Shown here one piece after another: positions 4,454-49,527 of a stretch of DNA of 64,000 bases (position 1 is the first letter of the stretch; every line of letters starts with the position of its first letter). Both the position numbers and the translations under genes were made by a program. Source of the stretch: Melaminivora suipulveris. Its GTDB lineage: Bacteria; Pseudomonadota; Gammaproteobacteria; Burkholderiales; Burkholderiaceae_C. The notes beneath the pieces are model-generated. The model was not told the origin of the DNA. It searched no databases and worked only from the letters and a program-made list of their open reading frames with translations. Location of the stretch: positions 1,430,501 to 1,494,500 of the forward strand of contig NZ_CP027667.1 in assembly GCF_003008575.1 (NCBI RefSeq), written 5' to 3'.

Positions 4454-5589
4454 ACGGCGCCGCGCCAGCCCGCGCCCGCGCCCGGCCCCGGCGCGCGTCG
4501 CGCGCCGCGCTGGCCGCGGCCTGCTGCGTGCTGGCCGGCTGCGCCCAGGGCGGCGGCACCCTGGGCTACTACTGGCAATCGCTGCGCGGGCACCTGGACC
4601 TGCTGCACGCGGCGCGCCCGCTGCCCGAGTGGATCGCGGCCAGCACCACGCCCGAACCGCTGCGCCAGCGGCTGAAACTGGCGCAGCAGGTGCGCCGCTT
4701 CGCCAGCGAGCAGCTGGCGCTGCCCGACAACCCCAGCTACGGGCGCTACGCCGCCCTCGATCGCCCGGCCGCCGTATGGAACGTGGTGGCCGCGCCGCCG
4801 TGGTCGCTGCAACTGCATACCTGGTGCTTTCCGGTCACCGGCTGCGTCGGCTACCGCGGCTATTTCGATGAGCACGACGCGCAGGCCGAGGCCCGCCGCC
4901 TGGCGCTGACGGGCCTGGAGGTGAACGTCTATCCGGTGCCGGCGTACTCCACGCTGGGCTACAGCAACTGGCTGGGCGGCGACCCCCTGCTGTCCACCTT
5001 CATCGGCTGGCCCGAGGGCGATTTCGTGCGCCTGCTGCTGCACGAGCTGGCGCACCAGGTGGCCTACGCCAGCGGCGACACGCGTTTCAACGAGTCCTAT
5101 GCCACGGCCGTGGAGCGCCTGGGCGTGCGCCAGTGGCTGGACCAGCACGCCGACGCCGCCACGCGCGCCGCCTGGGAGCGCAGCGAGGAGCGCCGCGCGC
5201 AATGGCGCGCCTTGACCAGCGCGACACGCAGCCGCCTGGCCGCCATTTACGAGGCAAAAAGCCCTTCAGCCGGCGTGGATGAAGCGCTGGCAGCTATGAA
5301 AAAAGAAGCAATGGCGGATTTCGCCAGCGCCTATGCCCGGCTGCGCGCCGGCTGGCTGGCCGCCGGCGTGGCGCCGGCGCAGCTCGCGCCGCTGGACCGC
5401 TGGGTGGCGGGCGCCAACAACGCCAGCTTTGCCGCCCAGGGCGCCTACGACGACCTGGTGCCCGCCTTCATGGCGCTGTTCGCGCAGGAGGGCGGCGACT
5501 GGCCGCGCTTTCACGCGGCGGTGCGGGCCCTGGCGCGCGCGCCCCAGGCCGAGCGCGACGCAAGGATGCAAGAGCTCAGTCATCCATAA
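4450..5589 (+). CDS. Putative lipoprotein aminopeptidase (PF10023 family), probable CTG start
   Basis: A 379-residue secreted metallopeptidase of the bacterial 'putative aminopeptidase' family. Started at CTG 4450 it has an Arg-rich n-region, a hydrophobic Ala/Leu stretch and a lipobox LAGC with Cys31, so it should be an outer-membrane lipoprotein. The zinc motif HELAH with a downstream Glu (NESYAT) is present about two thirds of the way along, as is the family segment FPVTGCVGYRGYF. The next canonical start, GTG 4528, would remove the whole signal peptide. Residues around KSPSAGVDEALAAMKKEA are encoded by a dispersed repeat (5255-5310). It follows the hypothetical gene with a stop/start overlap. 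Confidence 0.8.
   Translation: MNGAAPARARARPRRASRAALAAACCVLAGCAQGGGTLGYYWQSLRGHLDLLHAARPLPEWIAASTTPEPLRQRLKLAQQVRRFASEQLALPDNPSYGRYAALDRPAAVWNVVAAPPWSLQLHTWCFPVTGCVGYRGYFDEHDAQAEARRLALTGLEVNVYPVPAYSTLGYSNWLGGDPLLSTFIGWPEGDFVRLLLHELAHQVAYASGDTRFNESYATAVERLGVRQWLDQHADAATRAAWERSEERRAQWRALTSATRSRLAAIYEAKSPSAGVDEALAAMKKEAMADFASAYARLRAGWLAAGVAPAQLAPLDRWVAGANNASFAAQGAYDDLVPAFMALFAQEGGDWPRFHAAVRALARAPQAERDARMQELSHP
5255..5310 (+). repeat. Dispersed repeat family 1, copy A (inside a CDS)
   Basis: This copy shows the family core CAGCCGGCGTGGATGAAGCG followed by GCAGCTATGAAAA. It lies inside the aminopeptidase gene and is read in frame as KSPSAGVDEALAAMKKEA. The same core occurs in nine other places of this window. 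Confidence 0.8.
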
Positions 5590-5664
5590 CGCTGCGCGCC
5601 GCCCGCAAGGCATGAAATGAGCGCGGCCCCCGCGCGGGCCACCGCGCAGGGGCCGCCCCGCCGC

Positions 5665-5737
5665 GCTGGTGGCGTCCCCCTGCCCGCGCGCAGCGCGAGA
5701 GCGGGGGGAGGCGGCGCAGCCGCTCAGGGGGGTGTCC
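5665..5737 (-). repeat. Dispersed repeat family 2, copy 1
   Basis: Read on the minus strand this is CCCCTGAGCGGCTGCGCCGC, then a run of Cs, a GC-rich palindromic middle, and GGGGGACGCCACCAGC. The same arrangement occurs at 34668-34742 in the other orientation. It fills the gap between the convergent aminopeptidase and acyl-CoA-binding protein genes. Its self-complementary arms (CCCCC and GGGGG blocks around a GCGC-rich centre) could fold into a long hairpin. Confidence 0.7.
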
Positions 5738-5743
5738 TCTAAT

Positions 5744-6001
5744 TCACCCGCGCAGCGACTCGATGAGGTCGATGTACTGCTGCTTGGCGGCGTCCGCGTC
5801 CGTGCCCTTGAGCTTTTCCCAGGCGTCCCACTTGGCACGGCCGACGATGTCGGAAAAGCTCGGCTTCTTGTCCTGGTTGTCGCCCGCAGTGGCCTGCTTG
5901 TACAGGGCGTAGATCTTCAGCAGCGTCGGGTTGTCGGGGCGCTCGCTGAGGTTCTTGGAATTGGCCACGGCGGCCTCGAAGGTGTCGTTCAGGTCGGACA
6001 T
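5744..6001 (-). CDS. Acyl-CoA-binding protein
   Basis: An 85-residue acyl-CoA-binding protein (ACBP), a four-helix protein that binds long-chain acyl-CoA thioesters in the cytoplasm. Conserved residues seen include LLKIYALYKQAT, the KWDAWEKLKG helix and QQYIDLI. The start at 6001 is chosen because GGAG lies 6 bases upstream and the product then has the usual family length; a longer upstream start adds 16 unrelated residues. It is a single gene, convergent to the aminopeptidase. Confidence 0.93.
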   Translation of the reverse strand: MSDLNDTFEAAVANSKNLSERPDNPTLLKIYALYKQATAGDNQDKKPSFSDIVGRAKWDAWEKLKGTDADAAKQQYIDLIESLRG

Positions 6002-6126
6002 GCGGGTCTCCGGTGTGAAGGGGTCGTGGAAACGGCGCAGTGTAGTCAAAAAGCGAACGGTCGTGCTTTTTCACCGGAACAAAAAAACCCGCCACCGGGG
6101 CGGGCCGGATGTCCCTGGGGCGCGGT

Positions 6127-7338
6127 TCAGGTCGCCGGCTGCGCCAACCACTTGCGCGCCAGTTCGACCCAATAGCTGCCGCCCAGCGGGATCAGCTCGT
6201 CGTTGAAGTCATAACTCGGGTTGTGCAGCGTGCAGGGCCCGCCGCCGTGGCCCATGGCGCGGTGGTCGCCCTCGCCGTTGCCGATGAAGACGTAGGCGCC
6301 CGGCTTGGCCTGCAGCATGTAGGCGAAGTCTTCCGCGCCCATGGTCGGCTCCTGCGCGCGCACGTTGTCCTCGCCGACGATGCCGGCCATGACGCGCGCG
6401 GCAAACCCCGCCTCCGCCGGCGAGTTGATGGTCGGCGGATAGTTGCGCACGAACTCGAAGTCGCACTGCGCTTCAAAGGCCGCGCAGGTGTGCTCGGCCA
6501 CCTGGCGCATGCGCTGCTCGATCAGGTCCAGCACCTCCACCGAGAAGGTGCGCACCGTGCCCTGCAGCTCGCACCAGTCGGGCACCACGTTGGTCGCCTC
6601 GCCGGCGTGGATCATGGTCACCGAGATCACGCCGGCATCCACGGGCTTTTTGTTGCGGCTGATGATGGTCTGGAAGGCCTGCACCATCTGGCAGGCCACC
6701 GGCACCGGGTCGACGCCCAGATGCGGCATGGCGCCGTGCGCGCCCTTGCCGCGGATGGTGATCTTGAACTCGTTGGAGGACGCCATCACCGGGCCGGGGC
6801 TCACGGCGAAGGTGCCCGCCGGCATGCCCGGCCAGTTGTGCATGCCGAACACGGCCTGCATCGGGAACTGCTCGAACAGGCCGTCCCGGATCATCTCGCG
6901 CGCGCCGCCGCCGCCCTCCTCGGCCGGCTGGAAGATCAGGTACACGGTGCCGTCGAAGTCGCGGTTTTCCTCGCGTGCGAAATGCTGCGCCGCCGCCAGC
7001 AGCATGGCCACGTGTCCGTCGTGGCCGCAGGCGTGCATCTTGCCGGCGTGGCGGCTGGCGTGCTCGAAGGTGTTGAACTCCTGCATGGGCAGGGCGTCGA
7101 TGTCGGCGCGCAGGCCCACGGCGCGGCCGCAGGCGCCACCGTCGCGCCCGTGCACGATGCCCACCACGCCGGTTTGCCCCAGGCCGCGGTGGATGGGGAT
7201 GCCCCATTCGGTCAGCTTGGCGGCGATGACGTCGGCCGTGCGCACCTCCTCGAAGCACAGTTCGGGGTGGGCGTGGATGTCGCGGCGCACGGCGGCGAGG
7301 GCCGCCGCCTGGGTGGCGATGGAGTCGATGAGTTTCAT
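6127..7338 (-). CDS. M20D-family amidohydrolase (hippurate / N-acyl-amino-acid hydrolase type)
   Basis: A 403-residue cytoplasmic metallohydrolase of peptidase family M20D, which removes acyl groups from N-acyl amino acids such as hippurate. Metal-binding elements are visible: HACGHDGH at about residues 102-109 (including the Cys ligand), PAEE at 138-141, and MGAEDFAYM near the C-terminus. The substrate-binding insert with HNWPGMPAGTFAV is also present. Length is normal. The start at 7338 gives the conserved N-terminus (IHAHPELCFEE near residue 21). The next gene upstream on the same strand, a solute-binding protein, is 90 bases away; shared function is possible but not shown. Confidence 0.88.
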   Translation of the reverse strand: MKLIDSIATQAAALAAVRRDIHAHPELCFEEVRTADVIAAKLTEWGIPIHRGLGQTGVVGIVHGRDGGACGRAVGLRADIDALPMQEFNTFEHASRHAGKMHACGHDGHVAMLLAAAQHFAREENRDFDGTVYLIFQPAEEGGGGAREMIRDGLFEQFPMQAVFGMHNWPGMPAGTFAVSPGPVMASSNEFKITIRGKGAHGAMPHLGVDPVPVACQMVQAFQTIISRNKKPVDAGVISVTMIHAGEATNVVPDWCELQGTVRTFSVEVLDLIEQRMRQVAEHTCAAFEAQCDFEFVRNYPPTINSPAEAGFAARVMAGIVGEDNVRAQEPTMGAEDFAYMLQAKPGAYVFIGNGEGDHRAMGHGGGPCTLHNPSYDFNDELIPLGGSYWVELARKWLAQPAT

Positions 7339-7427
7339 GGTCGCTTGGGGCCTGTGGGAGTCGTCGTGCGGGATGACCGGCCAGTCTAGCCCCATGGGTG
7401 CAACCCTGGCGTGACGGCGGACATGGC

Positions 7428-8615: not shown

Positions 8616-8727
8616 GCTGAAATCTCCGGTTCGTGGCGTCCCGGCGCACTTTGTGCGCCGCCTGGCGTCGCACTGTAGCCAATCCGCCCGCGCGCCCCGC
8701 CCTCGCCCTCCACGCCGCCACGCCGCC

Positions 8728-10809
8728 ATGACCGATCCTGCCGCCACCGCCGCGCCGACCGCCACCGCCAGCCGCACCATGGTCGTGCGCGGCGCCTGTC
8801 CGCACGACTGCCCGGACACCTGCGCGCTGCTCACCACCGTCGAGGACGGCCGCGCCGTGCGCGTGCAGGGCAACCCGGATCACGGCGCCACCGGCGGCGT
8901 GCTGTGCGCCAAGGTCTCGCGCTACGCCGAGCGCACCAACCACGCCGAGCGCATCCTGACGCCGCTCAAGCGCGTCGGCCCCAAGGGCCTGGGGCGCTTC
9001 GAGCCCGCCTCGTGGGACGAGGCGCTGGCCGACATCGCGCAGCGCCTGGGCCAGATCGCCGCGCGCGAGCCGCAGGCCATCGTGCCCTACAGCTTCGCCG
9101 GCACCATGGGCCTGGTGCAGGGCGAGAGCATGGACCGGCGCTTCTTCCACCGCCTGGGCGCCTCGCAGCTGGCGCGCACCATCTGCGCCACCGCCGGCGC
9201 CGAAGGGCTGACCTACACGCTGGGCGGCAAGGTCGGCATGAAGACGCAGTTCTTCGCCGAATCGAAACTGATCCTGATCTGGGGCGGCAACTCGATCGCC
9301 AGCAACCTGCACTTTTGGCGTCTGGCGCAGCAGGCCAAACGAGCCGGCGCGCGCCTGGTGTGCATCGACCCGCGCAAGAGCGAGACGGCGGAAAAATGCC
9401 ACGAGCACATCCAGTTGCTGCCCGGCACCGACGCCGCGCTGGCGCTGGCGCTGATGCACGAGTTGATAACAAACGACTGGCTGGACCACGACTACCTCGC
9501 GTGCCACACGCTGGGCTGGCCGCAACTGCGCGAACGCGCCCTGCAATGGCCGCCCGAGCGCGCCGCCGCCGTCTGCGGCGTGCCGGCCGAGCAGATCCGC
9601 CGCCTGGCGCGCGACTATGGCCAGACGCAGCCCGCGGCCATTCGACTGAACTACGGCGTGCAGCGTGCGCGCGGCGGCGGCAATGCCGTGCGGGCGATTG
9701 CCAGCCTGCCGGCGCTCACGGGCGCCTGGCGCCACCGCGCGGGCGGCGTGCTGATGTCCAGCTCGGGACACTTTCCGGTGCAGCGCGCGCAGTTGCAGCG
9801 CCCGGACCTGCTGGCCGGGCGGCCCAGCCGCACCATCAACATGGTGACCATCGGCGACGACCTGCTGCGCCCGTCCTCACCCGAGTTCGGCCCGAAGATC
9901 GAGGCACTCGTCGTCTACAACAGCAACCCGGTGGCGGTGGCGCCGGATTCCGGCCGCGTGGTGCAGGGCTTTGCGCGCGAGGACCTGTTCACCGTGGTGC
10001 TGGAGCACTTCCACACCGATACCGCCGACTGGGCCGACTGGATCCTCCCGGCCACCACGCAGCTGGAGCACTGGGACGTGCACCTGGCCTACGGCCACAC
10101 CGACGTGCTGCTGAACCGCCCGGCTGTCGCGCCCCTGGGCCAGGCGCGCAGCAACGCGCAGATCTTCCGCGACCTGGCCGCGCGCATGGGCTTTGCCGAG
10201 GCCTGCTTTGCCGACGGCGACGAGCAGCTGTGCCGCCAGGCCTATGGCGACGCCGTGGATTTCGAGCAGCTGGCCGAGCGGGGCTTTGCCGCGCTGCCGG
10301 TGCCAGACGCGCCGTTTGCCGAGGGCGGCTTTCCCACGCCTTCGGGCAAGTGCGAGTTCCACAGCCCGCGCCTGGCCGCGCAGGGCCTGGAGCCGCTGCC
10401 CGACTGGCTGCCCAACCACGAGGCGCCGGGCAGCTCGGCCTTGTATCCGCTGGCCATGATCTCGCCGCCGGCGCGCAATTTCCTGAACACCACCTTCGTG
10501 AACCTGCAAAGCCTGCGCGACATCGAGGGCCGGCCGCTGCTGGAGATCCACCCGCAGGATGCCGCCGCGCGCGGCGTCCAGGATGGTGACCTGGTGCGCG
10601 TGTTCAATGGCCGCGGCAGCTACGCCTGCCATGCCGAGGTCAGCGAGCGCGCCCGCCCTGGCGTGGTGGTGGGCCTGGGGATCTGGTGGCGCAAGCTGGG
10701 CGTGGACGGCACCAACGTCAACGAACTGACCAGCCAGGCGCTGACCGACCTGGGCGCCGCGCCGACCTTCTACGACTGCCTGGTGGAGGTCGAGCGGGCT
10801 GCCGCGTAG
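8728..10809 (+). CDS. Molybdopterin-dependent oxidoreductase with an N-terminal [4Fe-4S] site
   Basis: A 693-residue enzyme of the DMSO-reductase superfamily. The N-terminus has Cys24, Cys28, Cys32 and Cys60 for a [4Fe-4S] cluster (CPHDCPDTC and GGVLCAK), followed by the molybdopterin domains (LIWGGNSIASN, CIDPRKSETA) and the C-terminal dinucleotide-binding domain (LLEIHPQDAAARGV). A Cys in ARTICATAG is a candidate metal ligand. No twin-arginine signal is present, so it is probably cytoplasmic. Substrate unknown; no electron-transfer subunit lies nearby. The ATG at 8728 is chosen because the upstream extension overlaps the divergent gene and is unlike the family. The stop TAG is the first three bases of repeat copy B. 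Confidence 0.85.
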   Translation: MTDPAATAAPTATASRTMVVRGACPHDCPDTCALLTTVEDGRAVRVQGNPDHGATGGVLCAKVSRYAERTNHAERILTPLKRVGPKGLGRFEPASWDEALADIAQRLGQIAAREPQAIVPYSFAGTMGLVQGESMDRRFFHRLGASQLARTICATAGAEGLTYTLGGKVGMKTQFFAESKLILIWGGNSIASNLHFWRLAQQAKRAGARLVCIDPRKSETAEKCHEHIQLLPGTDAALALALMHELITNDWLDHDYLACHTLGWPQLRERALQWPPERAAAVCGVPAEQIRRLARDYGQTQPAAIRLNYGVQRARGGGNAVRAIASLPALTGAWRHRAGGVLMSSSGHFPVQRAQLQRPDLLAGRPSRTINMVTIGDDLLRPSSPEFGPKIEALVVYNSNPVAVAPDSGRVVQGFAREDLFTVVLEHFHTDTADWADWILPATTQLEHWDVHLAYGHTDVLLNRPAVAPLGQARSNAQIFRDLAARMGFAEACFADGDEQLCRQAYGDAVDFEQLAERGFAALPVPDAPFAEGGFPTPSGKCEFHSPRLAAQGLEPLPDWLPNHEAPGSSALYPLAMISPPARNFLNTTFVNLQSLRDIEGRPLLEIHPQDAAARGVQDGDLVRVFNGRGSYACHAEVSERARPGVVVGLGIWWRKLGVDGTNVNELTSQALTDLGAAPTFYDCLVEVERAAA

Positions 10810-10875
10810 CTATAGAAAATATAGCTGCCCACGCTTGATCCACGCCGACTGAAGGCCCTTTCGACTGAAATTTCA
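10807..10875 (-). repeat. Dispersed repeat family 1, copy B
   Basis: On the minus strand this reads TTTCAGTCG, then GGCCTTCAGTCGGCGTGG, ATCAAGCG and GCAGCTATA. It ends in a 7-bp hairpin (AGCTATA and TATAGCT, 10808-10826). The copy fills the whole space between two convergent genes: its TAG is the stop of the molybdoenzyme and its TGA at the other end is the stop of the FAH-family gene. Confidence 0.85.
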
Positions 10876-11820
10876 GCCCAGCGGCACGATTTCCTGGTCG
10901 ATGGCGCCGAACACGCTCTGGCCGGTGCGGCCCTTCATCTCGACGCGCACGCTGTCGCCGTGGCGCAGATAGGCGGTGCTGGCCACACCGGCCTCCAGCA
11001 GCTCGCGCGCGCGGCGCTCGGCGATGCTGGCGTAGCCGCGCGCGGCGTCCTGGTTGGCCACCGGGGCGGCGGCGACGATGGAGCCGGCGCGCACGTTGCG
11101 CGTCGCCGCCAGATGTGCGATCAGCTCGCCGAAGTGCCAGCCCATCTCCGACCCGGTCTCGCACAGGCCCACGCGCCGGCCGTTCCAGCTGCACTGCAGC
11201 GTCAGGTGCACGCGTCCGCCCTGCCAGGCATCGCCCAGCTCATCGGGCGTCACGGCCACCGGACTGAAGGCGACAGCCGGGCGCGAGCGCAGCGCCGCCG
11301 CGCCGGCAGCCTGCTCGGCGACCTCCAGCCGGCGCAGCACCAGCACACTGGCCAGCATCAGCAGGCGCACGCCCTCCAGCGCCTGCTCGGGCGCGGCGCC
11401 ACACCGCACGTCGCCGGTGATGGTGGCCAGGCCGGCCTCGAAGTCGACGTCCATGTCCTCATGGGCCACTGCCGCCGCGGCGCAGGCGCCCAGCAGCTCG
11501 TCGCTGGCCGCGCGCTGCATTGGCGGCGGGGACGAAGCAGCGGGCGCCGCGCCAGGGTAGGCGCGCGCCACGGCGCACTGGTAGGCGCGCGGCAGGGGGG
11601 CCAGGCAGCGCCCTGGCTCGAACGGAAAGGCGTGCGGCGCGCGGCCGGCGTTCAGATCGCCGTAAAGGTCGGCCAGCTGCGGCGCCAGGAAGTTCCAGTC
11701 GTCCAGCACCTGCTGCAGGCGGCTGGCGATGCCGCTCGCATAATGGGCCTGGCTCAGATCGCGCGAGACCACGACGAGCTGGCCGTCGCGCGAGCCGTCC
11801 TGGTAGGTGGCAAGTTTCAT
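10873..11820 (-). CDS. Fumarylacetoacetate hydrolase (FAH) family protein
   Basis: A 315-residue cytoplasmic enzyme of the FAH superfamily, which includes metal-dependent hydrolases, isomerases and decarboxylases acting on beta-keto acids from aromatic catabolism. Family blocks are present: DMDVDFEAGLATITGDV (acidic metal-binding region), ETGSEMGWHFGELIAHLA, and the C-terminal region ERRARELLEAG. The exact substrate cannot be told from sequence and no ring-cleavage genes are adjacent. It converges on the molybdoenzyme gene and is divergent from the DUF3108 gene (122-base gap). Confidence 0.85.
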   Translation of the reverse strand: MKLATYQDGSRDGQLVVVSRDLSQAHYASGIASRLQQVLDDWNFLAPQLADLYGDLNAGRAPHAFPFEPGRCLAPLPRAYQCAVARAYPGAAPAASSPPPMQRAASDELLGACAAAAVAHEDMDVDFEAGLATITGDVRCGAAPEQALEGVRLLMLASVLVLRRLEVAEQAAGAAALRSRPAVAFSPVAVTPDELGDAWQGGRVHLTLQCSWNGRRVGLCETGSEMGWHFGELIAHLAATRNVRAGSIVAAAPVANQDAARGYASIAERRARELLEAGVASTAYLRHGDSVRVEMKGRTGQSVFGAIDQEIVPLG

Positions 11821-11942
11821 GGGTGGGCTGAAGGTGCTGCTGCCCTGGCGGGAACCGCCAGCGGCGCGCGGCGATCCAGCAAGGCAATGATGACGAGAGA
11901 ACGCAAAATTTTAGGCGGCGCGCGGGCACGGGCGCGGCACGC

Positions 11943-13187: not shown

Positions 13188-13280
13188 GAGCCCCGCGCCG
13201 ACGCGGGGCCAAGCTTGAAGTTGCGCATACTGCAGCCATCTGCCAGGTACGAGACAGCATCAGATATCAGGGAGAACGCC

Positions 13281-13574: not shown

Positions 13575-13640
13575 AGTTTTTCAGTCAAATCCGCCCTCAG
13601 TCGGCGCCCATCAATCGCAAGCAGCTATGTTTTAGATAGC
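13575..13640 (+). repeat. Dispersed repeat family 1, copy C
   Basis: Reads TTTTTCAGTCAAATCCGCCC, then TCAGTCGGCG, ATCAATCG and GCAGCTATGTTTTAGATAGC. It lies between convergent genes and runs into the 3' end of the hemerythrin-like gene, whose last codons (LSKT) and TAG stop (13625-13627) are repeat sequence. Confidence 0.85.
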
Positions 13641-13975
13641 GCGCTGCCCGCGCCGCGGCGCTGCGCCATCTCCGCGCCCATGGCGCGCTCCTTCTCCTGG
13701 TCGAGCACGGCGCGCGCTGCCGGGTAGATCGTCAGGTCCTCGTGGCGCAGCGGCGCGGCGATGTCGAAGTAGCGCAGCACGTCGCGCGCGGCCTGGCGCG
13801 CGGAGTCGTCGCAGCCCTTGTCCGGCAGGTAGGCGCGCAGGCGCTCCAGCAGGTCCAGCGAGCGGCGCACGCGCTCGTGGCAGGCGTCCAGCATGGCAAA
13901 AGGTTCGTCGAACCCGGCCCCGGGGGCGCGCACGCCCGGCAGCGACACGCGCGCGGCGCTGCCGCCGCCGGTCAT
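13625..13975 (-). CDS. Hemerythrin-like protein, apparently shortened at the C-terminus
   Basis: The 116-residue product begins like a bacterial hemerythrin-domain protein (PFAMLDACHERVRRSLDLLERL) and has a second helix with DVLRYFDIAAPLRHEDLTIYP, giving candidate iron ligands His34 and the HED group. The domain needs four helices and further His/Asp ligands; here the protein ends after the third helix, inside repeat copy C, with the last residues encoded by the repeat. It is therefore probably truncated and may be non-functional for iron or oxygen binding. Its start overlaps the stop of the upstream gene (13972-14403) as ATGA. Confidence 0.65.
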   Translation of the reverse strand: MTGGGSAARVSLPGVRAPGAGFDEPFAMLDACHERVRRSLDLLERLRAYLPDKGCDDSARQAARDVLRYFDIAAPLRHEDLTIYPAARAVLDQEKERAMGAEMAQRRGAGSALSKT

Positions 13976-26340: not shown

Positions 26341-26486
26341 TGCGGGTTTTTCCGGTTGTGGGATGTCCGCAATGGTCGTCTCAACCGGACGCCGCGCCCA
26401 TCCTTCCGTGGCAGGGCCGGAGCGCGGCAGAAGAACGATGGTTGTCCGGCACCGTCCTACTCCGAAAGAACTATCACCACATGCCG

Positions 26487-26550
26487 TTTTTGAGCCAAAT
26501 TGGCCTTCAGCCGGCGTGCTTCAAGCGTGAGCAGCTATGAAAGCAGGAGC
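26487..26550 (+). repeat. Dispersed repeat family 1, copy D
   Basis: Reads TTTTTGAGCCAAATTGGCC, TTCAGCCGGCGTG, TCAAGCG and GCAGCTATGAAA. It lies between the narK1 upstream region and the narL stop, leaving only about 150 bases for the nar promoter. Confidence 0.85.
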
Positions 26551-26558
26551 AAACAGGA

Positions 26559-29241: not shown

Positions 29242-29306
29242 TTTTTGAAGCCTTTTGAGGCCTCAGCCGTCGTGGAGCAAAGGCCTTTAGCTATTAAATA
29301 TATAGC
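29242..29306 (+). repeat. Dispersed repeat family 1, copy E (divergent)
   Basis: Reads TTTTTGAAGCC, GGCCTCAGCCGTCGTGGA, GCAAAGG and TTAGCTATTAAATATATAGC. The middle is less conserved than in other copies but the order and spacing of blocks are the same, including the terminal GCTAT/ATAGC hairpin. It sits between the narX start and the nrdJ stop. Confidence 0.7.
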
Positions 29307-29315
29307 GTCGAGCCG

Positions 29316-31760: not shown

Positions 31761-32014
31761 GGTGTTTTGTTCTCGGCTGGTAATGAAAGGCGCGGGGCGG
31801 AGCGCTGGCTCGGCCCATCCGCGGGCGCCGCTTCGGGCGGCTCGCGCGCGAAACTGGGGTTGTACACCACCGGCCCAGCCGCTCTTTCGGCACGTGAAAC
31901 GCGGGGCGTCCGGGGCGTCGATTCGGCATTTTTCGTAGCACCCGCGCTGCACCCGGCATGGACTGCGGCGCGGTCGCCCGTCTGTCGCGCCCAGGCAACA
32001 ATTACCATGCGGCG

Positions 32015-32857
32015 ATGTCCGCCATTTCCTTGCCTTTCCGCAGGCCCTTTCTGCTCGCCGCCCTGGCGCTGGCCGCCCTGCCCGGCTGCGCGCCGGGCCG
32101 GATCGGCCCCGCGCATTCAGCCTGGCACGCGCAGCTCGAGCGCTGGGCCGGCGTACAGGCACTGTTGCTGGGCGAGCAGCACGACGTGCCCGCGCACCAG
32201 CAGTGGGAGGCCGACACCGTGGCCTGGCTGGCCGCGCGGGGTCGGCTGGCGGCGCTGGTCATCGAGATGGCCGAGGCCGGCGCCGGCACCGACGGCCTGC
32301 CGCCCGGCGCATCCGAAGATCAGGTGCGCGCCGCCCTGCGCTGGAACGAGGACGCCTGGCCCTGGCAGCGCTACGCCGCGCCGGTCATGGCCGCCGTGGC
32401 CGCCGGCGTGCCGGTGCGCGGCGGCAACCTGGACTCCGACGCGCTGCGCGCGGCCTTGCGCGACGAGGCGCTGGACACCCACCTGGGCGCCGATGCCTTG
32501 GCGCGCCAGCGCCGCGCCATCGAAGACGGCCACTGCGGCCTGCTGCCCGCAGCGCGCGTGCAGCCCATGGTGCGCGTGCAGCTGGCGCGCGACGCCAGCC
32601 TGGCGCGCACCCTGCGCCAATCGCTGCGGCCGGGGCGCACGGCGGTGCTGCTGGCCGGCTACGGCCACGTGCAGCGCAGCCTGGGCGTGCCGACCTGGCT
32701 GGGGCCGGATATCACGGCAAAAGTGGCCATAGCCGGCGAAAATCAAGCGCGGACAGCTATGAAAATGGAAGCGGATTGGCACCAGGAAACGCCCGCCGCA
32801 CCACCGGTGGACCACTGCGCCGCGCTGCGCGCGCGCTGGCCCGGCGCCGCGCGCTGA
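32015..32857 (+). CDS. ChaN-family lipoprotein (haem/iron-regulated type)
   Basis: A 280-residue lipoprotein of the ChaN family (PF04187), outer-membrane proteins some of which bind haem. The start at 32015 gives a signal peptide ending in LPGC. The family motif LLLGEQHDVPAHQQWE follows, and near the C-terminus VLLAGYGHVQRSLGVP. The last part (from about residue 235) is encoded by repeat copy F, read as AKVAIAGENQARTAMKMEA, and is followed by a short Cys-containing tail. Divergent from nrdJ. Iron regulation is not evident from the upstream sequence. Confidence 0.8.
   Translation: MSAISLPFRRPFLLAALALAALPGCAPGRIGPAHSAWHAQLERWAGVQALLLGEQHDVPAHQQWEADTVAWLAARGRLAALVIEMAEAGAGTDGLPPGASEDQVRAALRWNEDAWPWQRYAAPVMAAVAAGVPVRGGNLDSDALRAALRDEALDTHLGADALARQRRAIEDGHCGLLPAARVQPMVRVQLARDASLARTLRQSLRPGRTAVLLAGYGHVQRSLGVPTWLGPDITAKVAIAGENQARTAMKMEADWHQETPAAPPVDHCAALRARWPGAAR
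32717..32772 (+). repeat. Dispersed repeat family 1, copy F (inside a CDS)
   Basis: Reads GGCCATAGCCGGCG, AATCAAGCGCGGACAGCTAT and GAAAATGGAAGC. It lies in the 3' part of the ChaN-like gene and is translated in the same frame as copy A in the aminopeptidase, giving a related peptide (AG, A and AMK at the same positions). Confidence 0.8.
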
Positions 32858-33783: not shown

Positions 33784-34677
33784 ATGGCCGCCCCGGAGGG
33801 CGCCGGCCTGCGGCGCATTCCCCCCATCCAGTGCCTGCTCACCTTCGAGGCGCTGGCGCGCCTGCGCAGCGTGACGCAGACGGCCGACGAGCTGTGCGTG
33901 ACGCCCAGCGCGGTGAGCCACCGCGTCAAACAGCTCGAGCAGATCCTGGGCACGCGCTTGTTCGGCCGCTCGGACTTTTCGCTGACCACCGACGGCAGCG
34001 CGTATCTCGCGCACGTGCGCGAGGGGCTCACTGCCCTGCAGCGCTTTCCCGGCATGGCGTCCAATCCGGCCAAGCGGCGCCTGAAGATCGCCGTCACGCC
34101 GACGTTCGCCCGCTCCATCCTGATCCCGCGCCTGCGCCAGTTCACCGAGGCTTATCCCGAGATCGACCTGGCACTGCAGGTCTCCATTCCACTTTTGGAC
34201 GTGGTGGCCGAGGACGCCGACCTGGTCGTGCGCTTCGGCCCCGGCCATTACGCCGACATGGAGCACGTGGAGATCGCGCGCGACATCGTCACGCCCCTGG
34301 CCTCGCCGGCCTTCGTGCGCGAGCACGGCCCCTTCGAACGGCCGGAGGACCTGGCCGAAGTGCCGCTGCTGCGCAGCCCGCTGGAGCCCTGGCGCAGCTG
34401 GTTCGACGCCTGCGGCCTGGACTGGCCGGCGCCCACCGAGGGCTCGCAGTTCAACGATGTGGGCCTGATGTGCGACGCGGCGGCTGCCGGCATGGGCGTG
34501 GCGCTGGTGCGACTGAAACTCGGCATGCCCTGGCTGGACCAGGGCACGTTGGTCCGCCTGTTCGACATCGACGCGCCCAGCCCGCACGCGCACTACCTGT
34601 GCTGGCGCACCGGCACCATGGACCGCTGGGAGTGCTCGGCCTTCGCCGAATGGTTGAAGGCGACGACATCCCCCTGA
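33784..34677 (+). CDS. LysR-family transcriptional regulator (GcvA-like)
   Basis: A 297-residue LysR-type regulator with an N-terminal winged helix-turn-helix (about residues 12-70: LRSVTQTADELCVTPSAVSHRVKQLE) and a substrate-binding domain typical of the GcvA group (VVRFGPGHYADMEHVEI, MCDAAAAGMGVALV). Its target is unknown; it follows purU by 6 bases, so a link with one-carbon or glycine metabolism is possible but only inferred. The stop TGA lies within repeat family 2 copy 2. Confidence 0.88.
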   Translation: MAAPEGAGLRRIPPIQCLLTFEALARLRSVTQTADELCVTPSAVSHRVKQLEQILGTRLFGRSDFSLTTDGSAYLAHVREGLTALQRFPGMASNPAKRRLKIAVTPTFARSILIPRLRQFTEAYPEIDLALQVSIPLLDVVAEDADLVVRFGPGHYADMEHVEIARDIVTPLASPAFVREHGPFERPEDLAEVPLLRSPLEPWRSWFDACGLDWPAPTEGSQFNDVGLMCDAAAAGMGVALVRLKLGMPWLDQGTLVRLFDIDAPSPHAHYLCWRTGTMDRWECSAFAEWLKATTSP

Positions 34678-34742
34678 GCGCCTGCGGCGCTTCCCCCTTC
34701 TCTGGCGCGCTGCGCGCTGGGAAGGGGGACGACGCCAGTGGC
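34668..34742 (+). repeat. Dispersed repeat family 2, copy 2
   Basis: Begins CCCCCTGAGCGCCTGCGGCGC, continues with TTCCCCC, a palindromic GCGCGCTGCGCGC centre and GGGGGACGACGCCAG, matching the minus strand of 5665-5737. The TGA of its first block is the stop codon of the LysR gene. The C-rich and G-rich arms can pair around the central palindrome. Confidence 0.7.
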
Positions 34743-34805
34743 CTGGCAAAGCCAGTTCCACGACGTCCGCTGGCTTGGCGCGCCGGTTTCCGGGGTTGCT
34801 GACGA

Positions 34806-34868
34806 TTTCAAGCCAAATCTGGCCTTAGCCGGCGTAGATGAAGCGCGATTAGCTATCAATAAATGAGC
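34806..34868 (+). repeat. Dispersed repeat family 1, copy G
   Basis: Reads TTTCAAGCCAAATCTGGCC, TTAGCCGGCGTAGATGAAGC and TTAGCTATCAATAAATGAGC. It lies in the 267-base gap between the LysR gene and glcD, downstream of repeat family 2 copy 2; nothing else is recognised in that gap. Confidence 0.85.
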
Positions 34869-34944
34869 ATCAGTGCCAGCGGCTTCACGGCTGGCTGCAA
34901 GAAAACTCACGCCGCGCGCGGCCGCGCTGGCCTACAGTTGTCCC

Positions 34945-40460: not shown

Positions 40461-43400
40461 CTACCAGGTATCCACGAAGCGCGCGCGGCCTTCGCGCAGC
40501 TGCGCCGAGGCCAGTCCGCGCACCAGCCAGGCGCGGGTTTCCGCAGGGTCGATGACGGCATCGATCTCCAGCGTGCTGGCCATGTGCATGGCCTCGCCGT
40601 GCGCGTACTGGCGCGCCAGCAGCTGCTGGAACAGCGCGTCGCGCTCCGGCCCTTCGGCCACGGCTTCGAGCTCCTTGCGAAAGCCCAGGCGCACCGCACC
40701 CTCCAGCCCCATGGCGCCAAACTCGCCCGTGGGCCAGGACACCGTGAACACCGGCGCGTGCAGCCCGCCCGCCGCCATGCCCATCGCCCCCAGGCCATAG
40801 GCCTTGCGCAGCACCACGGCGAAGAACGGCACGCGCAGGCTGGCGGCGGTGACGAACAGGCGGCTGACGTGGCGCACCTGCGCGGTTTTTTCAACCTCGG
40901 GGCCGACCATGAAGCCGGGCGTGTCGATCAGGCTGACGATGGGCAGGCCGTGCGCGTTGCACAGCTGCATGAATCGCGCCGCCTTGTCGGCCGCCGGCGC
41001 GTCGATGGCGCCGCCCAGGTGCGCGGGGTTGCTGGCCAGCAGGCCCACGGGCCGGCCGTCGATGCGCGCAAGCGCCGTGTGGATGCCGATGCCGAAGCCC
41101 GTGCGCAGCATCAGCAGGCTGCCCTCGTCCACCAGCTGCGCCATGGCCGCGCGCGTGTCGTACACGCGCAGGCGGTTATGAGGCACCACGGCGCGAAGCT
41201 GACGCTGGTCGGGCGCGCTCCACTGGCGCGCGCGGCCCTGGAAGAAAGACAGGTAGTGGCGCGCCGCCGCCACGGCTGCGCGCTCATCCTGCACCAGCAC
41301 GTCGATCACGCCGCTTTGGTGCTGCACGCCGGCCGGGCCGATGTCCTCGGGTGCAAAAACGCCCAGCCCGCCGCCTTCGATCATGGCCGGCCCGCCCATG
41401 CCGATGTTGCTGGCGCGCGTGGCGATGATGACGTCCGAGCAGCCCAAGAGCGCCGCGTTGCCGGCAAAGCAGCGCCCGTGCGCGATGCCAACGACGGGCA
41501 CCTGTCCGGACAGCGCGGCATAGGCAGCGAAGGTGTGTACGTGCAGGCCGGCGACGACGGCCATGTCGGTATCGCCCGGCCGCCCGCCGCCGCCTTCGGC
41601 AAACAGCACCACGGGCAGCTTTTGCTGCAGGGCAATGCCCAGCATGCGGTCGGTCTTGGCGTGGTTGCGCATGCCTTGCGTGCCCGCCAGCACCGTGGCG
41701 TCGTAGGCCATGACCACGGCGCGCGCGCGCTCGGCGCTGTCGCAGTGCGCGCCGTTGACGCTGCCGATGCCGGTGACCATGCCGTCGGCCGGCGTGTTGG
41801 CGATCAAATCCTCCATGCTGCGCCGGCGCGTCTGCGCGGCCACGGCCAACTGGCCGTATTCGATGAAGGAGCCTTCGTCGCACAGGTCGTCGATGTTCTC
41901 GCGCGCGCTGCGGCTGCCCTGGGCGCGCCGGCGCGCCATGGCGCCCTCGCGGGCGGCGTCCAGCGTGTGCGCGTGGCGCTCGATGACGCGCTGCAGGTCG
42001 GCGCGGATGTGGTCCGGGTCGTGCTGCGCGGCGGGGCCGGCGGCGGCGGCATCGCCCGGCGCGTCGCCCTCGGCATCGAGCAGCAGCACCGCCTGGCCCT
42101 GCGCCAGTTGCGCGCCGGACGGCACCAGCCAGCGGCGCACGCGGCCGGCGTGCGGCGCGGCCAGCACATGCTCCATCTTCATGGCTTCCAGCAGGGCCAA
42201 CTCGGCGCCGGCGGCCACCCACTCGCCCTCGGCCACGCTGCACTGCGCCAGCAACGCCGGCATGGGCGCGGGCACGGCGCCCTGCTCCAGGGGCTCCAAA
42301 GGGGCCGCTGGAGGAGGTTTTTGGTCAAATCCGCCTCTAGCCGGCGAGGATGGCCGATTGTTTGCTATCGTTTTTGATTCTTCCAGCAACTGCGGCAGCA
42401 CCGCTTCCAGCCAGCGCGTGTGAACCTGCTGGGTCTGCAGCTCGGGCCGTGCGGCCAGCGCGCGCAGCAGCGGCAGGTTGGTCGCCACGCCGTCGATGTG
42501 GAACTCGGCCAGCGCCCGGCGCGAGCGGCGCAGCGCGGCGCCAAAGCCATCCGGCGCATGCACGACCAGCTTGGCCAGCAGCGTGTCGTAGTGCGGCGAG
42601 GGCGCGGCGCCTGTCTGGCCGTGCGTGTCCACGCGCACGCCCGGGCCGCCGGGCAGGTCGAAGCGCGTGAGCGTGCCGCTGCTGGCCAGGGCGTGGCCCG
42701 CGCCGTCCAGCGTCTCGACGTTGATGCGCCACTGGATGGCGCAGCCGCGCACCGGTGGCGGCGCGGCCGCGTCCAGCCCCAGGTCGGCCAGGCGGCAGCC
42801 GGCGGCCAGGCGCAGCTGCGCCTGCACCAGGTCGATGCCGCTGACCTCCTCGGTCACCGTGTGTTCGACCTGCAGGCGCGCGTTGGTTTCGATGAAGACG
42901 AAGGGCAGCTCCTGGCTGTCCAGGTCCACCAGGAATTCCCAGGTGCCCAGGCCCTGGTAGCGCACGGCGCGCGCCATGGCCAGGGCGGCGTCCTGCAGCT
43001 GCGCGCGCAGCGCGGGCGTGAGCGACGGGCTGGGCGCGATCTCGACCACCTTCTGGAAGCGCCGCTGCAGCGTGCATTCGCGCTCGCCCAGGGCCAGGGC
43101 GGCGTCGCCGTCGGCCAGGACTTGCACCTCGACGTGGCGCGCGCCCTCCATCAGCCGCTCGGCGTACACGCCGTCCAGGCCGAAGGCCGCGCGCGCCTCG
43201 CGCTGGCAGCGGGCGTAGGCATCCTCCAGCTCGGCCAGGCTGCGCACCGCGCGCATGCCGCGCCCGCCGCCGCCGGCCACGGCCTTGAGCATCACGCCGG
43301 CGCCGCCCTGCGCCTGGAAGAAGTCGCGCGCCTGGGCAAGCGTCAGCGCGCCGCCGCTGCCGGGCATGACGGGCACGCCGTGCTGCCGGGCCAGCTCGCG

Positions 43401-43754: not shown

Positions 43755-43767
43755 ATTCGGCGACGTA

Positions 43768-43818
43768 TTCAAATTTGATAGCTGGATGCGCTTGCTTGGC
43801 GCCGGCTCACGGCTGTTT
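43768..43818 (-). repeat. Dispersed repeat family 1, copy J
   Basis: On the minus strand this reads AAACAGCCGTGAGCCGGCG, then CAAGCAAGCGCATCCAGCTA and TCAAATTTGAAT. It is between the acyl-CoA synthetase stop and the carboxylase start, 13 bases upstream of the carboxylase ATG. Confidence 0.75.
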
Positions 43819-43848
43819 CTCCCTCTCCCGCGCGGTGGGAGAGGGAGA
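43818..43848 (-). other. 12-bp hairpin between acyl-CoA synthetase and carboxylase genes
   Basis: TCTCCCTCTCCC and its exact complement flank a 7-base loop (43818-43829 and 43837-43848). There is no T-run on either side, so it is not a standard terminator. It abuts repeat copy J and could be an RNA-processing or mRNA-stability element, or part of another repeat. Confidence 0.6.
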
Positions 43849-43854
43849 GAAGAA

Positions 43855-45453: not shown

Positions 45454-45514
45454 GGGGTTGTCTCCTGGGGCGGTTGCGGCGAACGCGCCAGGATAGGTCG
45501 CGCAGCCGCGGCCG

Positions 45515-46267: not shown

Positions 46268-46311
46268 AATGTTTGTCCAGAATTGTCAAATACAGCCAAC
46301 CGGGAATTCTC

Positions 46312-47355
46312 GTGGACATCACCCAGCTGCTCGCCTTCAGTGTGAAGAACAAGGCTTCGGACCTGCACCTGTCGGCCGGGCTGCCGCCCATGATCCGCGT
46401 GCATGGTGACGTGCGCCGCATCAACGTCGATGCGCTGGACCACAAGACCGTGCATGCCATGGTCTACGACATCATGACCGACTCGCAGCGCAAGGCCTAC
46501 GAGGAGTTCCTGGAGGTCGATTTTTCCTTCGAGATCGATGGCCTGGCGCGTTTTCGCGTCAACGCCTTCAACCAGCACCGGGGCGCGGCGGCGGTGTTCC
46601 GCACCATTCCCAGCAAGATCCTCACACTGGAGCAGCTGAACGCACCCAAGATCTTTGCCGACCTGTCGCTCAAACCGCGCGGGCTGGTGCTGGTCACCGG
46701 GCCTACGGGCTCGGGCAAGTCGACCACGCTGGCGGCCATGGTCAATTACCTCAACGAAAGCGCCTACGGCCACATCCTGACGGTGGAGGATCCGATCGAG
46801 TTCGTGCACGAGTCCAAGAAGTCGCTCATCAACCAGCGCGAGGTCGGGCCCATGACGCTGTCGTTCTCGGCGGCGCTGCGCTCGGCGCTGCGCGAGGACC
46901 CGGATGCCATCCTGGTGGGCGAGATGCGCGACCTGGAGACCATCCGCCTGGCCATGACCGCCGCCGAGACCGGCCACCTGGTGTTCGGCACGCTGCACAC
47001 CTCCAGCGCCGCCAAGACGATCGACCGCATCATCGACGTCTTCCCGGCGGAGGAAAAGGAGATGGTGCGCGCCATGCTGTCGGAGTCGCTGCAGGCGGTG
47101 ATTTCGCAGACGCTGTGCAAGACCAAGGACGGCCAGGGCCGCGTGGCGGCGCACGAGATCATGCTGGGCACCAGCGCGATCCGCAACCTGATCCGCGAGG
47201 CCAAGGTGGCGCAGATGTATTCGGCCATCCAGACCGGCAACAGCGTCGGCATGCAGACGCTGGACCAGAACCTCACCGACCTGGTGCGGCGCAACATCAT
47301 CAGCCCGGCCGAGGCGCGCAGCAAGGCCAAGATTCCGGAGAACTTCCCCGGTTGA
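46312..47355 (+). CDS. pilT: Twitching motility / pilus retraction ATPase PilT
   Basis: A 347-residue hexameric ATPase that powers type IV pilus retraction. Walker A GPTGSGKST at residues 130-138, the Asp box (HILTVEDPIEF), Walker B (DAILVGEMRD) and His box (ETGHLVFGTLHTSSA) are all present. The start is the GTG at 46312, which gives the family N-terminus DITQLLAFSVKNKASDLHLS; a TTG further upstream is not used. pilU follows after 63 bases. Confidence 0.96.
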   Translation: MDITQLLAFSVKNKASDLHLSAGLPPMIRVHGDVRRINVDALDHKTVHAMVYDIMTDSQRKAYEEFLEVDFSFEIDGLARFRVNAFNQHRGAAAVFRTIPSKILTLEQLNAPKIFADLSLKPRGLVLVTGPTGSGKSTTLAAMVNYLNESAYGHILTVEDPIEFVHESKKSLINQREVGPMTLSFSAALRSALREDPDAILVGEMRDLETIRLAMTAAETGHLVFGTLHTSSAAKTIDRIIDVFPAEEKEMVRAMLSESLQAVISQTLCKTKDGQGRVAAHEIMLGTSAIRNLIREAKVAQMYSAIQTGNSVGMQTLDQNLTDLVRRNIISPAEARSKAKIPENFPG

Positions 47356-47418
47356 TGCTGCGCGCATCGCCTGCCCACAGGACAATCGGGGCCGTAGCCG
47401 CCCAGGGAACACGCCGAC

Positions 47419-48555
47419 ATGGAACGCGATCAGGCCAGTAAATTCATCAACGATCTGCTCCGGCTGATGGTCAGCCGCGGCGGCAGCGACCTGTTCATCA
47501 CGGCCGAGTTTCCGCCGGCCATCAAGGTCGACGGCAAGGTCACCAAGGTCTCGCCGCAACCGCTCACGCCCGGCCACACGCTGGCGCTGGCGCGCTCCAT
47601 CATGAGCGACCGGCAGATCGCCGACTTCGAACGCACCAAGGAGTGCAATTTCGCCATTTCCCCAGCCGGCGTCGGGCGCTTTCGCGTCAACACTTTCGTG
47701 CAGCAGGGCCGCGTGGGCATGGTCATGCGCTCCATCCCGACGCGCCCGCCGACCATCGACGGCCTGGGGATGCCGCAGGTGCTCAAGGAGGTCGCCATGG
47801 CCAAGCGCGGCCTGTGCATCCTGGTGGGCGCCACCGGCTCGGGCAAGTCGACCACGCTGGCGGCCATGCTGGACTGGCGCAACGAGAACTCGCACGGCCA
47901 CATCGTCACGGTGGAGGACCCGGTGGAGTTCGTGCACGCGCACAAGAACTGCGTGGTCACGCAGCGCGAGATCGGTCTGGACACGGACAGCTGGGAAATC
48001 GCGCTGAAAAACAGCCTGCGCCAGGCGCCCGACGTGATCCTGATGGGCGAGATCCGCGACCGCGAGACGATGGAGCACGCGGTGGTCTTCGCCGAAACCG
48101 GCCACCTGTGCCTGGCCACGCTGCACGCCAACAGCGCCAACCAGGCGCTGGACCGCATCGTCAACTTCTTCCCCGAGGAGCGGCGCGAACAGCTCCTGAT
48201 GGACCTGTCGCTGAACCTGCGCGCCATGGTCTCGCAGCGCCTGGTGCCGCACCAAAACGGCAAGGGCCGCGCCGCCGCCGTGGAGATCATGCTGAACACG
48301 CCCCTGATTGCCGACCTGATCTTCAAGAACGAGGTGGTCGAGATCAAGGAGATCATGAAAAAGAGCCGCAACCTCGGCATGCAGACCTTCGACCAGTCGC
48401 TGTTCGACCTGTTCGAGGCGGGCGTCATCACCTACGAGGACGCGCTGCGCAACGCCGATTCGGTCAACGACCTGCGGCTGCAGATCAAGCTGTCCAGCCA
48501 GCGCATGAAGACCACCGACCTGGCTGCCGGCACCGAGCACCTGAGCATCGTCTGA
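47419..48555 (+). CDS. pilU: PilT-dependent retraction ATPase PilU
   Basis: A 378-residue accessory retraction ATPase of type IV pili that works together with PilT. Walker A GATGSGKST at residues 137-145, HIVTVEDPVEF, VILMGEIRD and ETGHLCLATLHANSA are present. The C-terminal tail (about 340-378) is longer than in PilT, as usual for PilU. It is in one operon with pilT and is followed 42 bases later by the dehydrogenase gene, itself preceded by AAGGAG. Confidence 0.95.
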   Translation: MERDQASKFINDLLRLMVSRGGSDLFITAEFPPAIKVDGKVTKVSPQPLTPGHTLALARSIMSDRQIADFERTKECNFAISPAGVGRFRVNTFVQQGRVGMVMRSIPTRPPTIDGLGMPQVLKEVAMAKRGLCILVGATGSGKSTTLAAMLDWRNENSHGHIVTVEDPVEFVHAHKNCVVTQREIGLDTDSWEIALKNSLRQAPDVILMGEIRDRETMEHAVVFAETGHLCLATLHANSANQALDRIVNFFPEERREQLLMDLSLNLRAMVSQRLVPHQNGKGRAAAVEIMLNTPLIADLIFKNEVVEIKEIMKKSRNLGMQTFDQSLFDLFEAGVITYEDALRNADSVNDLRLQIKLSSQRMKTTDLAAGTEHLSIV

Positions 48556-48597
48556 CCCTGGCCGCGCCCGGCCGTTTCACAAGGAGTTTTCTGCCGC

Positions 48598-49527
48598 ATG
48601 ACCAGCAGCATCAATCCGCGCGACTACGAACCCACGCCCGCGCGCCGCGTCGCCTTCCTGGGCCTGGGCGTGATGGGCTATCCCATGGCCGGCCACCTCG
48701 CGCGCGCCGGCCATGCGGTGGCGGTGTACAACCGGACTGCTAGTAAAAAGATAGCATGGTGCGCAGAATTCACGCCGACTGACGGCCAAAAACACACCCA
48801 TACGCCGCGCGAGACGGTGCAGGACGCCGACATCGTGTTCTGCTGCGTCGGCAACGACGACGACCTGCGCAGCGTGATGCTGGGGCCGGAAGGCGCTTTC
48901 GCCGGCATGAAGCCCGGCGCGATCTTCGTCGACCACACCACGGCCTCGGCGGCAGTGGCACGCGAGCTGTACGCGCTGGCGGCAGAGCGCGGCCTGCGCT
49001 TCGTCGACGCGCCGGTCTCGGGCGGTCAATCCGGCGCGCAGAACGGCCAGCTGACGGTGATGTGCGGCGGCGATCAGGACGCTTTCGACGCGATGCGCCC
49101 GGTGGCACTCTCCTTCGGCCGCGCCGTGACTCGGGTCGGGGACAGCGGCGCCGGGCAACTGGCCAAGATGGTCAACCAGATCTGCATTGCCGGTCTGGTG
49201 CAGGGCCTGTCGGAGGCCGTGGCCTTCGGCCAGCAGGCGGGGCTGGACATGCCGCTGGTGCTGGAGGTGATCGGCAAGGGCGCGGCGCAAAGCTGGCAGC
49301 TGGACAACCGCGGCAAGACCATGGCCGAAGGCCGCTTCGACTTCGGCTTCGCGGTGGACTGGATGCGCAAGGACTTAGGGCTGGTGCTCGACGAGGCGCG
49401 GCGCAATGGCGCGCGCGTGCCCGTCACCGCGCTGGTAGACCAGTTCTACGCCGACGTGCAAAGCGCCGGCGGCGGGCGCTGGGACACTTCCAGCCTCATC
49501 ACCCGCCTGGCGCCGGACAAGAAATAG
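48598..49527 (+). CDS. NAD(P)-dependent beta-hydroxyacid dehydrogenase
   Basis: A 309-residue enzyme of the 3-hydroxyisobutyrate dehydrogenase / tartronate-semialdehyde reductase family. The Rossmann fold shows FLGLGVMGYPMAGHLARAGH, the substrate-binding FVDAPVSGGQSGAQNGQLTV and catalytic Lys in GAGQLAKMVNQI. The stretch after the second strand (TASKKIAWCAEFTPTDGQ) is encoded by repeat copy I; it replaces the surface helix and loop that normally follow VYNRT. The substrate cannot be assigned. Convergent with the BON lipoprotein gene. Confidence 0.87.
   Translation: MTSSINPRDYEPTPARRVAFLGLGVMGYPMAGHLARAGHAVAVYNRTASKKIAWCAEFTPTDGQKHTHTPRETVQDADIVFCCVGNDDDLRSVMLGPEGAFAGMKPGAIFVDHTTASAAVARELYALAAERGLRFVDAPVSGGQSGAQNGQLTVMCGGDQDAFDAMRPVALSFGRAVTRVGDSGAGQLAKMVNQICIAGLVQGLSEAVAFGQQAGLDMPLVLEVIGKGAAQSWQLDNRGKTMAEGRFDFGFAVDWMRKDLGLVLDEARRNGARVPVTALVDQFYADVQSAGGGRWDTSSLITRLAPDKK
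48739..48793 (-). repeat. Dispersed repeat family 1, copy I (inside a CDS)
   Basis: On the minus strand it reads TTTTTGGCCGTCAGTCGGCG, then TGAATTCTGCGC and GCTATCTTTTTACTAGC. It is inside the dehydrogenase gene and read in frame as SKKIAWCAEFTPTDGQK, the same frame as copy H in the carboxylase. Confidence 0.8.

Follow-up and report, generated by a model that had tools for sequence, protein, structure and literature searches.

A dispersed 68-base repeat family, spelled differently at orthologous sites in Melaminivora suipulveris and its relatives, as a candidate uptake watermark in Comamonadaceae

Uptake signal sequences (USS) consist of a core with A/T-rich shoulders, and in the literature on USS and DNA uptake sequences (DUS) biased uptake followed by recombination is held to give a molecular drive towards one word. 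Repeats of the REP/RAYT kind (repetitive extragenic palindromes and their associated tyrosine transposases) occur in hundreds of copies at gene ends and carry a dyad core. In the Pasteurellaceae, USS has divergent dialects and a minor pilin has been proposed as its receptor (PMC12616744). Among Comamonadaceae, the repeat BRE (Hot et al. 2011, PMC3110155) is present in several genomes, with ~69% G+C, ~90 bp and at most 29 copies per genome. Selective transformation was described in two Comamonadaceae in 2014, with no signal named in the sections consulted: foreign DNA at up to 1500-fold lowers the transformation of V. eiseniae by at most ~10-fold, and for A. temperans no DNA but that of its own species gave transformation (PMC4212676). 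Here we consider a repeat family of 68 alignment columns, ten copies of which had been noticed in a preliminary description of 64,000 nt of the Melaminivora suipulveris chromosome (contig NZ_CP027667.1, positions 1,430,501 to 1,494,500; “the window” refers to this whole stretch).

The family resembles each of these systems in part. With the DUS of Neisseriaceae (PMC3630211) it shares many copies, spelling by species or clade, permissive places that include gene ends and genes, copies in a foreign dialect, and a conserved sub-block amid changing letters; DUS, however, have 10-12 bases and are about ten times denser, and we do not file the family as DUS because in place of a short core of 9-12 bases it has 68 columns in several blocks, at about one copy per 6 kb. 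Pasteurellaceae USS share with it divergent dialects and a core with A/T-rich shoulders, but are shorter, have one core and belong to a different bacterial class. Like REP/RAYT repeats it has hundreds of copies at gene ends and, in most of its dialects, a dyad core; unlike them it has no RAYT and no dyad within copies in the genome that holds the window, and is retained at orthologous sites with changed spelling. BRE is likewise a short dispersed repeat of several Comamonadaceae; against its description, our element has 45-52% G+C (four genomes) and ~580 copies. The reading developed below is that the family is a candidate watermark marking DNA across the genome, akin to uptake sequences, a proposal that we regard as about evenly poised.

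The window's own genome (G000; 3,754,020 bp, one contig) was compared with congeners (G001-G004) and with a further genome, G035, among others. All ten window copies are present and belong to one family: each is regained by a profile built from the other nine within the window, the lowest leave-one-out scores being 15.7 bits for 42317(+) and 17.2 bits for 48793(-). Run against 800 kb of this chromosome, taken as two blocks of 400 kb, the ten-copy profile has 118 matches at E<1e-3; that DNA reversed has none. With a refined profile, 133 copies are found in 864 kb (the two blocks and the window), which corresponds to ~578 in the chromosome. At E<=0.001 in this search nine of the ten window copies pass; the exception, at 42317, has clear copies at its orthologous place in two congeners (38.4 and 42.6 bits). 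The dispersed family is confirmed, and it is larger than first reported.

The anatomy of the element was taken from 134 matches at E<1e-5, the 80 best being cut as equal 68-base pieces; these 80 align gap-free, and the nhmmer alignment of all 134 has one insert column. Columns 1-16 are A/T rich, with TTT near 3-5 and AAA or TTT at 12-14, and are followed by GCC. The core, AGYCGGCGTgnATcAAGCGC, occupies columns 24-43; four free columns separate it from AGCTAT (48-53), and an A/T tract then leads to AGC or AGT at 63-65. Columns 25, 27 and 49-51 are invariant in the 80 copies. The closing ATAGC described earlier holds only in part (columns 61-62: A 49%/G 44%, T 62%). Relative entropy over 133 copies is ~67 bits, where ~13.7 bits would locate 580 sites, and element G+C is 45.9% in G000 and 44.9-51.9% in three congeners. 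Several left-arm spellings coexist in G000; among 120 copies, AGTCGGCGT occurs 53 times, AGCCGGCGT 25, AGCCGTCGT 3 and AGCCGTTGA 3.

Each of five genomes has a distinct consensus. Over columns 24-31...37-43 it reads AGYCGGCG...CAAGCGC in G000, AGCGCTTG or AGCGCCCG...CAAGCGC in G003, mostly AACCCTTG...CAAGCGC in G004, AGCCCTTG-like...CAAGGGC in G001 and AGCCGGCG...TTGCC in G035; from these spellings across lineages it follows that left and right half-sites combine freely and vary independently. When 138 sites were scored with five dialect profiles, which were partly trained on the same copies, 127 fitted best with their own profile. These dialects stand at shared places. Positions 47-119 kb of G003:C1 are orthologous to most of the window, and nine of the ten window sites are occupied there. 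Among the 133 G000 sites, 35 have both flanks mapped in G003 (the others mainly lack fetched orthologous DNA), and of these 35 testable sites 30 carry a copy, in every case oriented as in G000; at the density of G003 (160 copies in 760 kb) we estimate that chance occupation would be a few per cent. Occupied orthologous sites number 5/6 in G004 and 4/6 in G001. Aligned DNA of the congeners is 85-88% identical.

The shift between dialects is incomplete, in that G000 holds a handful of cores of AGCCCTTG or AGCGCCCG type, and G004 has G000-like letters at two window sites. We considered import in both cases and rejected it: flank identity is not raised at the G004 sites (43.7 and 48.7 kb), and the flanks of three foreign-spelling copies in G000 (2,033,529-2,039,206), which might have formed an imported island, are ordinary orthologous DNA at 0.88-0.91.

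Whether sites have been re-spelled in place or overwritten by copying bears directly on the interpretation. Across the 30 orthologous pairs, loop identity is 0.29 (0.28 in random pairs) and that of the left arm core 0.34 (0.32), while the tail (0.60 vs 0.39) and columns 1-17 (0.58 vs 0.42) keep some memory of the locus; the first 10 flanking bases stand at ~0.6 and flanks further out at ~0.8. Within genomes, core columns are independent and form no haplotypes (z -2.3 to -0.2 in four genomes, with the weakest quarter dropped and shuffling confined to match-quality strata), and the closest pair among the 133 copies has 59 of 68 bases in common. Copying by descent is therefore not supported for the core; a full-length excess remains in G003 and G004.

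Fresh insertion, as of a miniature inverted-repeat transposable element, is not supported by the orthologous occupation or by the lengths of unoccupied sites. In ten such comparisons, in which one locus recurs in several rows, length differences are 0, 0, +9, -14, -15, -15, -25, -40, -196 and -198, with none between -40 and -196 and thus no 68-bp step; the insertion polymorphism that had been envisaged is not borne out, and core copies are not related by descent. The aminopeptidase gene that holds the first window copy gives a similar picture: across the protein and its 120 best homologues the region of the copy is 47-70 residues long (53 in the query), so that none of the 121 sequences lacks 22 residues, and QALAAMK-like strings are common among the 70 rows of the alignment that were listed. 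Taken together, the orthologous, linkage, intermediate and length data make the sites look old, apparently born by substitution and re-spelled in place, unoccupied sites being few.

Placement was assessed against 721 genes from a simple purpose-written caller (86-91% coding). Intergenic copies number 108 of 133, which is why we rule out the possibility, raised earlier, that the motif is a by-product of codon bias; they lie in 41 convergent, 65 tandem and 2 divergent gaps, against 70, 262 and 97 of the 429 background gaps of at least 50 nt, so that divergent gene pairs are almost avoided (2/108 vs 97/429). Not every copy is intergenic, since three of the nine passing window copies (5245, 32708 and 48736) lie inside predicted genes, as do 25 of the 133 overall, and 14 of those 25 have a common strand and phase. 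By strand, 70 copies are + and 63 -, with a GC skew too weak for defining replichores. Spacing in block A is more even than gene ends drawn at random would give (coefficient of variation 0.64, with 0 of 2000 nulls as low).

The reading that we propose for these observations is conditional throughout. A predicted DNA receptor of the competence machinery would read the core as two half-sites around a short centre, and would also read the A/T-rich shoulders and the AGCTAT block. Better-matching DNA would be taken up and recombined more often, and point mutation with biased transformation would pull every locus towards the receptor's preferred word; were the receptor to change, the half-sites of each locus would drift in turn until the new word was reached. 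Copies would persist where they are least harmful, at gene ends, in tolerant codons and at integron cassette ends. Orthologous retention with changed spelling, the absence of core haplotypes and the absence of an element-sized length step at the ten unoccupied comparisons all speak for this. So do coexisting left-arm intermediates, gene-end placement, the sharing of strand and phase inside genes, the even spacing of block A and the selective transformation described for A. temperans and V. eiseniae (PMC4212676). Many loci converging on a species word, in tolerated places and with no orientation preference, are the outcome that biased uptake with recombination is held to have. Foreign-spelling copies in G000 may be analogous to the peregrine DUS (PMC3630211).

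Several results weigh against an uptake signal. At 68 bp, ~67 bits and about one copy per 6 kb the element is far from DUS and USS of 9-12 bases at ~1 per kb. The core keeps no memory of the locus, as would also be expected of block replacement; full-length columns of G003 and G004 retain an excess of variance in the stratified test (z 3.2 and 3.5), and without stratification each of the four genomes has full-length pairwise distances whose variance exceeds that of shuffles. Spacing in block B is not significant (coefficient of variation 0.87, with 20% of nulls as low). ComEC is present in 36/36 genomes with and without the tested pattern, and two ComEA-type profiles do not separate pattern-positive from pattern-negative genomes, so these competence genes are uninformative as predictors of the element.

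Beside this comparison, ComEC of G007 (seven sites found in 120 kb) is read in several frames, while the match of G115 (25 pattern matches) to the G008 ComEC is confined to residues 276-825. Copies of the element are few in both genomes, and an assembly error is possible in each. Next to this weak lead, the ComEC frame of the pattern-free G290 is open.

The main rival, which we think rather unlikely, is that the copies are sites of a cytoplasmic chromosomal DNA-binding protein, such as a chromosome-organising or nucleoid factor, whose specificity shifts and whose sites follow by selection. Copies do behave as draws from a weight matrix, A/T tracts are phased, and the even spacing of block A would suit such a protein. 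The dyad-like half-sites, moreover, belong to the consensus and not to single copies: within a G000 copy 2.01 of 7 arm pairs form, as with shuffled partners (2.01), and G003 is only slightly above (4.88 vs 4.74 of 7), though a dyad core is present in most other dialects. Against this stand the excess of ~67 bits over the ~13.7 that would locate the sites, and re-spelling inside genes too, where a redundant site would be expected to be lost and not kept. Such a protein would further require that, within 12-15% divergence, selection had acted on several bases at every one of hundreds of sites.

We hold it improbable that the copies are old mobile or REP-like repeats, no longer inserting, that short ectopic gene conversion homogenises in place. 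The fall of orthologous identity towards the core (flanks ~0.8, tail 0.60, arm core 0.34, loop 0.29) is what conversion could give, a dyad core is found in most dialects, and many family genomes have a single-copy Y1_Tnp gene. Core columns are nevertheless unlinked, near-identical pairs are absent, left-arm intermediates are stepwise, and arm pairing is not kept in G000. A Y1_Tnp (RAYT) profile has no match in G000 and, of 20 Y1_Tnp loci, 18 lack a copy within ~1.5 kb; the remaining two include one of insertion-sequence type (G019). A REP/RAYT repeat is accordingly not supported for G000, and the RAYT-type or insertion-polymorphic repeat first envisaged does not agree with this null result or with the same-orientation occupation of 30/35 sites in G003. 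As an aside, most family genomes have a single Y1_Tnp match, against ~20 in G019:C1 (e.g. 2422373-2422732), several with identical scores, as of a multi-copy IS200-type element. An RNA element at mRNA 3' ends (a terminator, stability or processing signal) would fit the gene-end placement, in which 74 copies follow a co-oriented gene and the median distance past its end is 6.5 nt, but is very improbable given that tandem contexts show no orientation preference (33 co-oriented, 32 opposite), that RNAalifold, run for a consensus structure, predicts no pair for 80 copies, and that an Rfam scan of the window matches only a tRNA, the repeat having no match above gathering score.

The relatives foreseen in other genomes of the same family exist. 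A sequence-only model, R1, matches G000 and 19 of 59 relatives: 4/4 congeners, 15/31 further members of the GTDB family (among them G010, with one weak match) and 0/24 genomes of other families. A one-dialect pattern has at least 10 matches, and up to 463, in 39 of 299 family genomes including G000, the reversed pattern having at most 2 per genome; over the order, a 12.5-base pattern has at most 2 matches in each of 291 sampled genomes of other families, no more than the control level (reversed pattern, at most 3). Counts with the family pattern are lower bounds: G035 scores 0 with it and has copies in another dialect, 24 in 80 kb with its own-dialect profile and none in reversed DNA. We have on this account withdrawn an inference of patchy loss within genera, which had been drawn from one dialect pattern, and pattern-negative genomes in the competence-gene comparisons may not be element-negative. 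The exact G000 core occurs in four stretches of an 84,980-species collection, from which G000 itself may be left out, three of them in unrelated bacteria. No literature text was found to contain any of six 16-mers of the core, nor was a description of this repeat found in the literature searched, coverage of which leaves out most subscription journals.

Outside chromosomes, the element consensus matches 13 of 72,556 plasmid records and none of 50,697 phages. Six of the 13 best plasmid places carry a DUF1010 annotation (PF06231); plasmid NZ_KJ541071.1 has two copies, at 1482-1556 and 2679-2752, among resistance cassettes. In one 105-residue plasmid frame DUF1010 spans residues 34-99; of the 66-residue profile, the first third corresponds to the element in translation, and the rest reads across an attC-like site, such sites being recognised by their resemblance to the attC consensus. 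At all six genomic loci examined, chosen as the best DUF1010 matches, at least two copies of the repeat recur, most of them with an attC-like site behind. DUF1010 was detected in 13 of 24 genomes scanned (9 above cut-off), all 13 being among the 14 chosen as pattern-positive. The start of its profile is thus this element translated, while DUF1010 is filed as a protein family; in the frames examined it is the conceptual translation of this repeat and an attC-like site. The module stands at cassette ends both in integrons of several Comamonadaceae genomes and in one blaOXA-2 array, a distribution hinting that such cassettes have passed through Comamonadaceae.

More tentatively than for the watermark itself, we suggest an extended picture, possible if somewhat doubtful, in which the Comamonadaceae signal would be long and of several blocks, its half-sites read separately and changing independently; a change of recogniser would lead to re-spelling in place, cassettes would be labelled beside attC and so addressed to kin, and DUF1010 would in part be this label mistaken for a protein.

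Copies of the repeat in the window, with gene context, score and state of the orthologous site in congeners
Copy	Position	Strand	Context	Score (bits)	Orthologous site
1	5245..5312	+	within predicted aminopeptidase gene (4528-5589 +, PF10023)	55.0	own-spelling copies in G003 and G004; equal-length gene sequence without the element in G001
2	10806..10873	-	3' end of gene 10873-11820 (-), between converging genes	61.3	G003 interval of 1,152 nt, containing two copies
3	13576..13643	+	between converging genes, 7 nt past stop codon	55.0	occupied in G001, G003, G004
4	26486..26553	+	intergenic, opposite to both neighbour genes	58.0	occupied in G003, G004; weak remnant in G001 (18.1 bits); none in G002
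5	29242..29309	+	intergenic	41.7	occupied in G001, G003, G004, own spelling in each; none in G002
6	32708..32775	+	within predicted gene (31958-32857 +, PF04187)	30.6	occupied in G001, G003
7	34804..34871	+	intergenic, adjoins a different, second repeat (~34666-34795)	53.2	occupied in G003, G004
8	42317..42384	+	decayed	15.7 (leave-one-out)	clear copies in G003, G004
9	43763..43830	-	intergenic, 24 nt from downstream-lying gene, 8 nt from next	35.0	own spelling in G003; letters nearly those of G000 in G004
10	48736..48803	-	weak, antisense within 6PGDH/HIBADH-type dehydrogenase gene (48598-49527 +)	27.3	no match in G003 or G001 (same or nearly same sequence length); G000-like copy in G004

The preliminary description had also found no copies in the segment of an integrative and conjugative element, an absence that carries little weight because, of the proteins scanned, only three (VirB8, CagX and TrbI; window 314-3293) are conjugation proteins. 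In the 864 kb there are seven element-free gaps longer than 16 kb, four with a G+C of 0.53-0.65 against 0.68 for the genome and three ordinary. The end of the conjugative element (window 1-4742) lies beside tRNA-Ser(gct) at 4656-4742, and nothing in the DNA fetched from three congeners aligns with the first 4 kb. The second repeat beside copy 7 is G+C-rich, ~100-125 bp long and possibly related to BRE; G001 and G003 hold dozens of matches to it, G004 and G002 few. Since its interval is 221 nt long in G000 but 98 nt in G003, the repeat may have inserted recently in G000. Two stretches in window 46705-48180 are repeated 1,128 bp apart and are 73-79% identical, which probably reflects the tandem duplication of a gene.

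The repeat accounts for some of what is annotated as DUF1010 and is a marker of resistance cassettes for which a passage through Comamonadaceae is possible. As a candidate uptake family it offers a concrete candidate signal for the Comamonadaceae selectivity reported in 2014, and predicts another word in each species, which makes the question of uptake directly testable. If the reading is true, uptake specificity would extend beyond Neisseriaceae and Pasteurellaceae, and the uptake word would change so quickly that it sets apart congeners still 85-88% identical in aligned DNA. Even if the recogniser were a chromosomal protein, hundreds of orthologous sites re-spelled in place would provide a striking example of cis-trans co-evolution across a genome.

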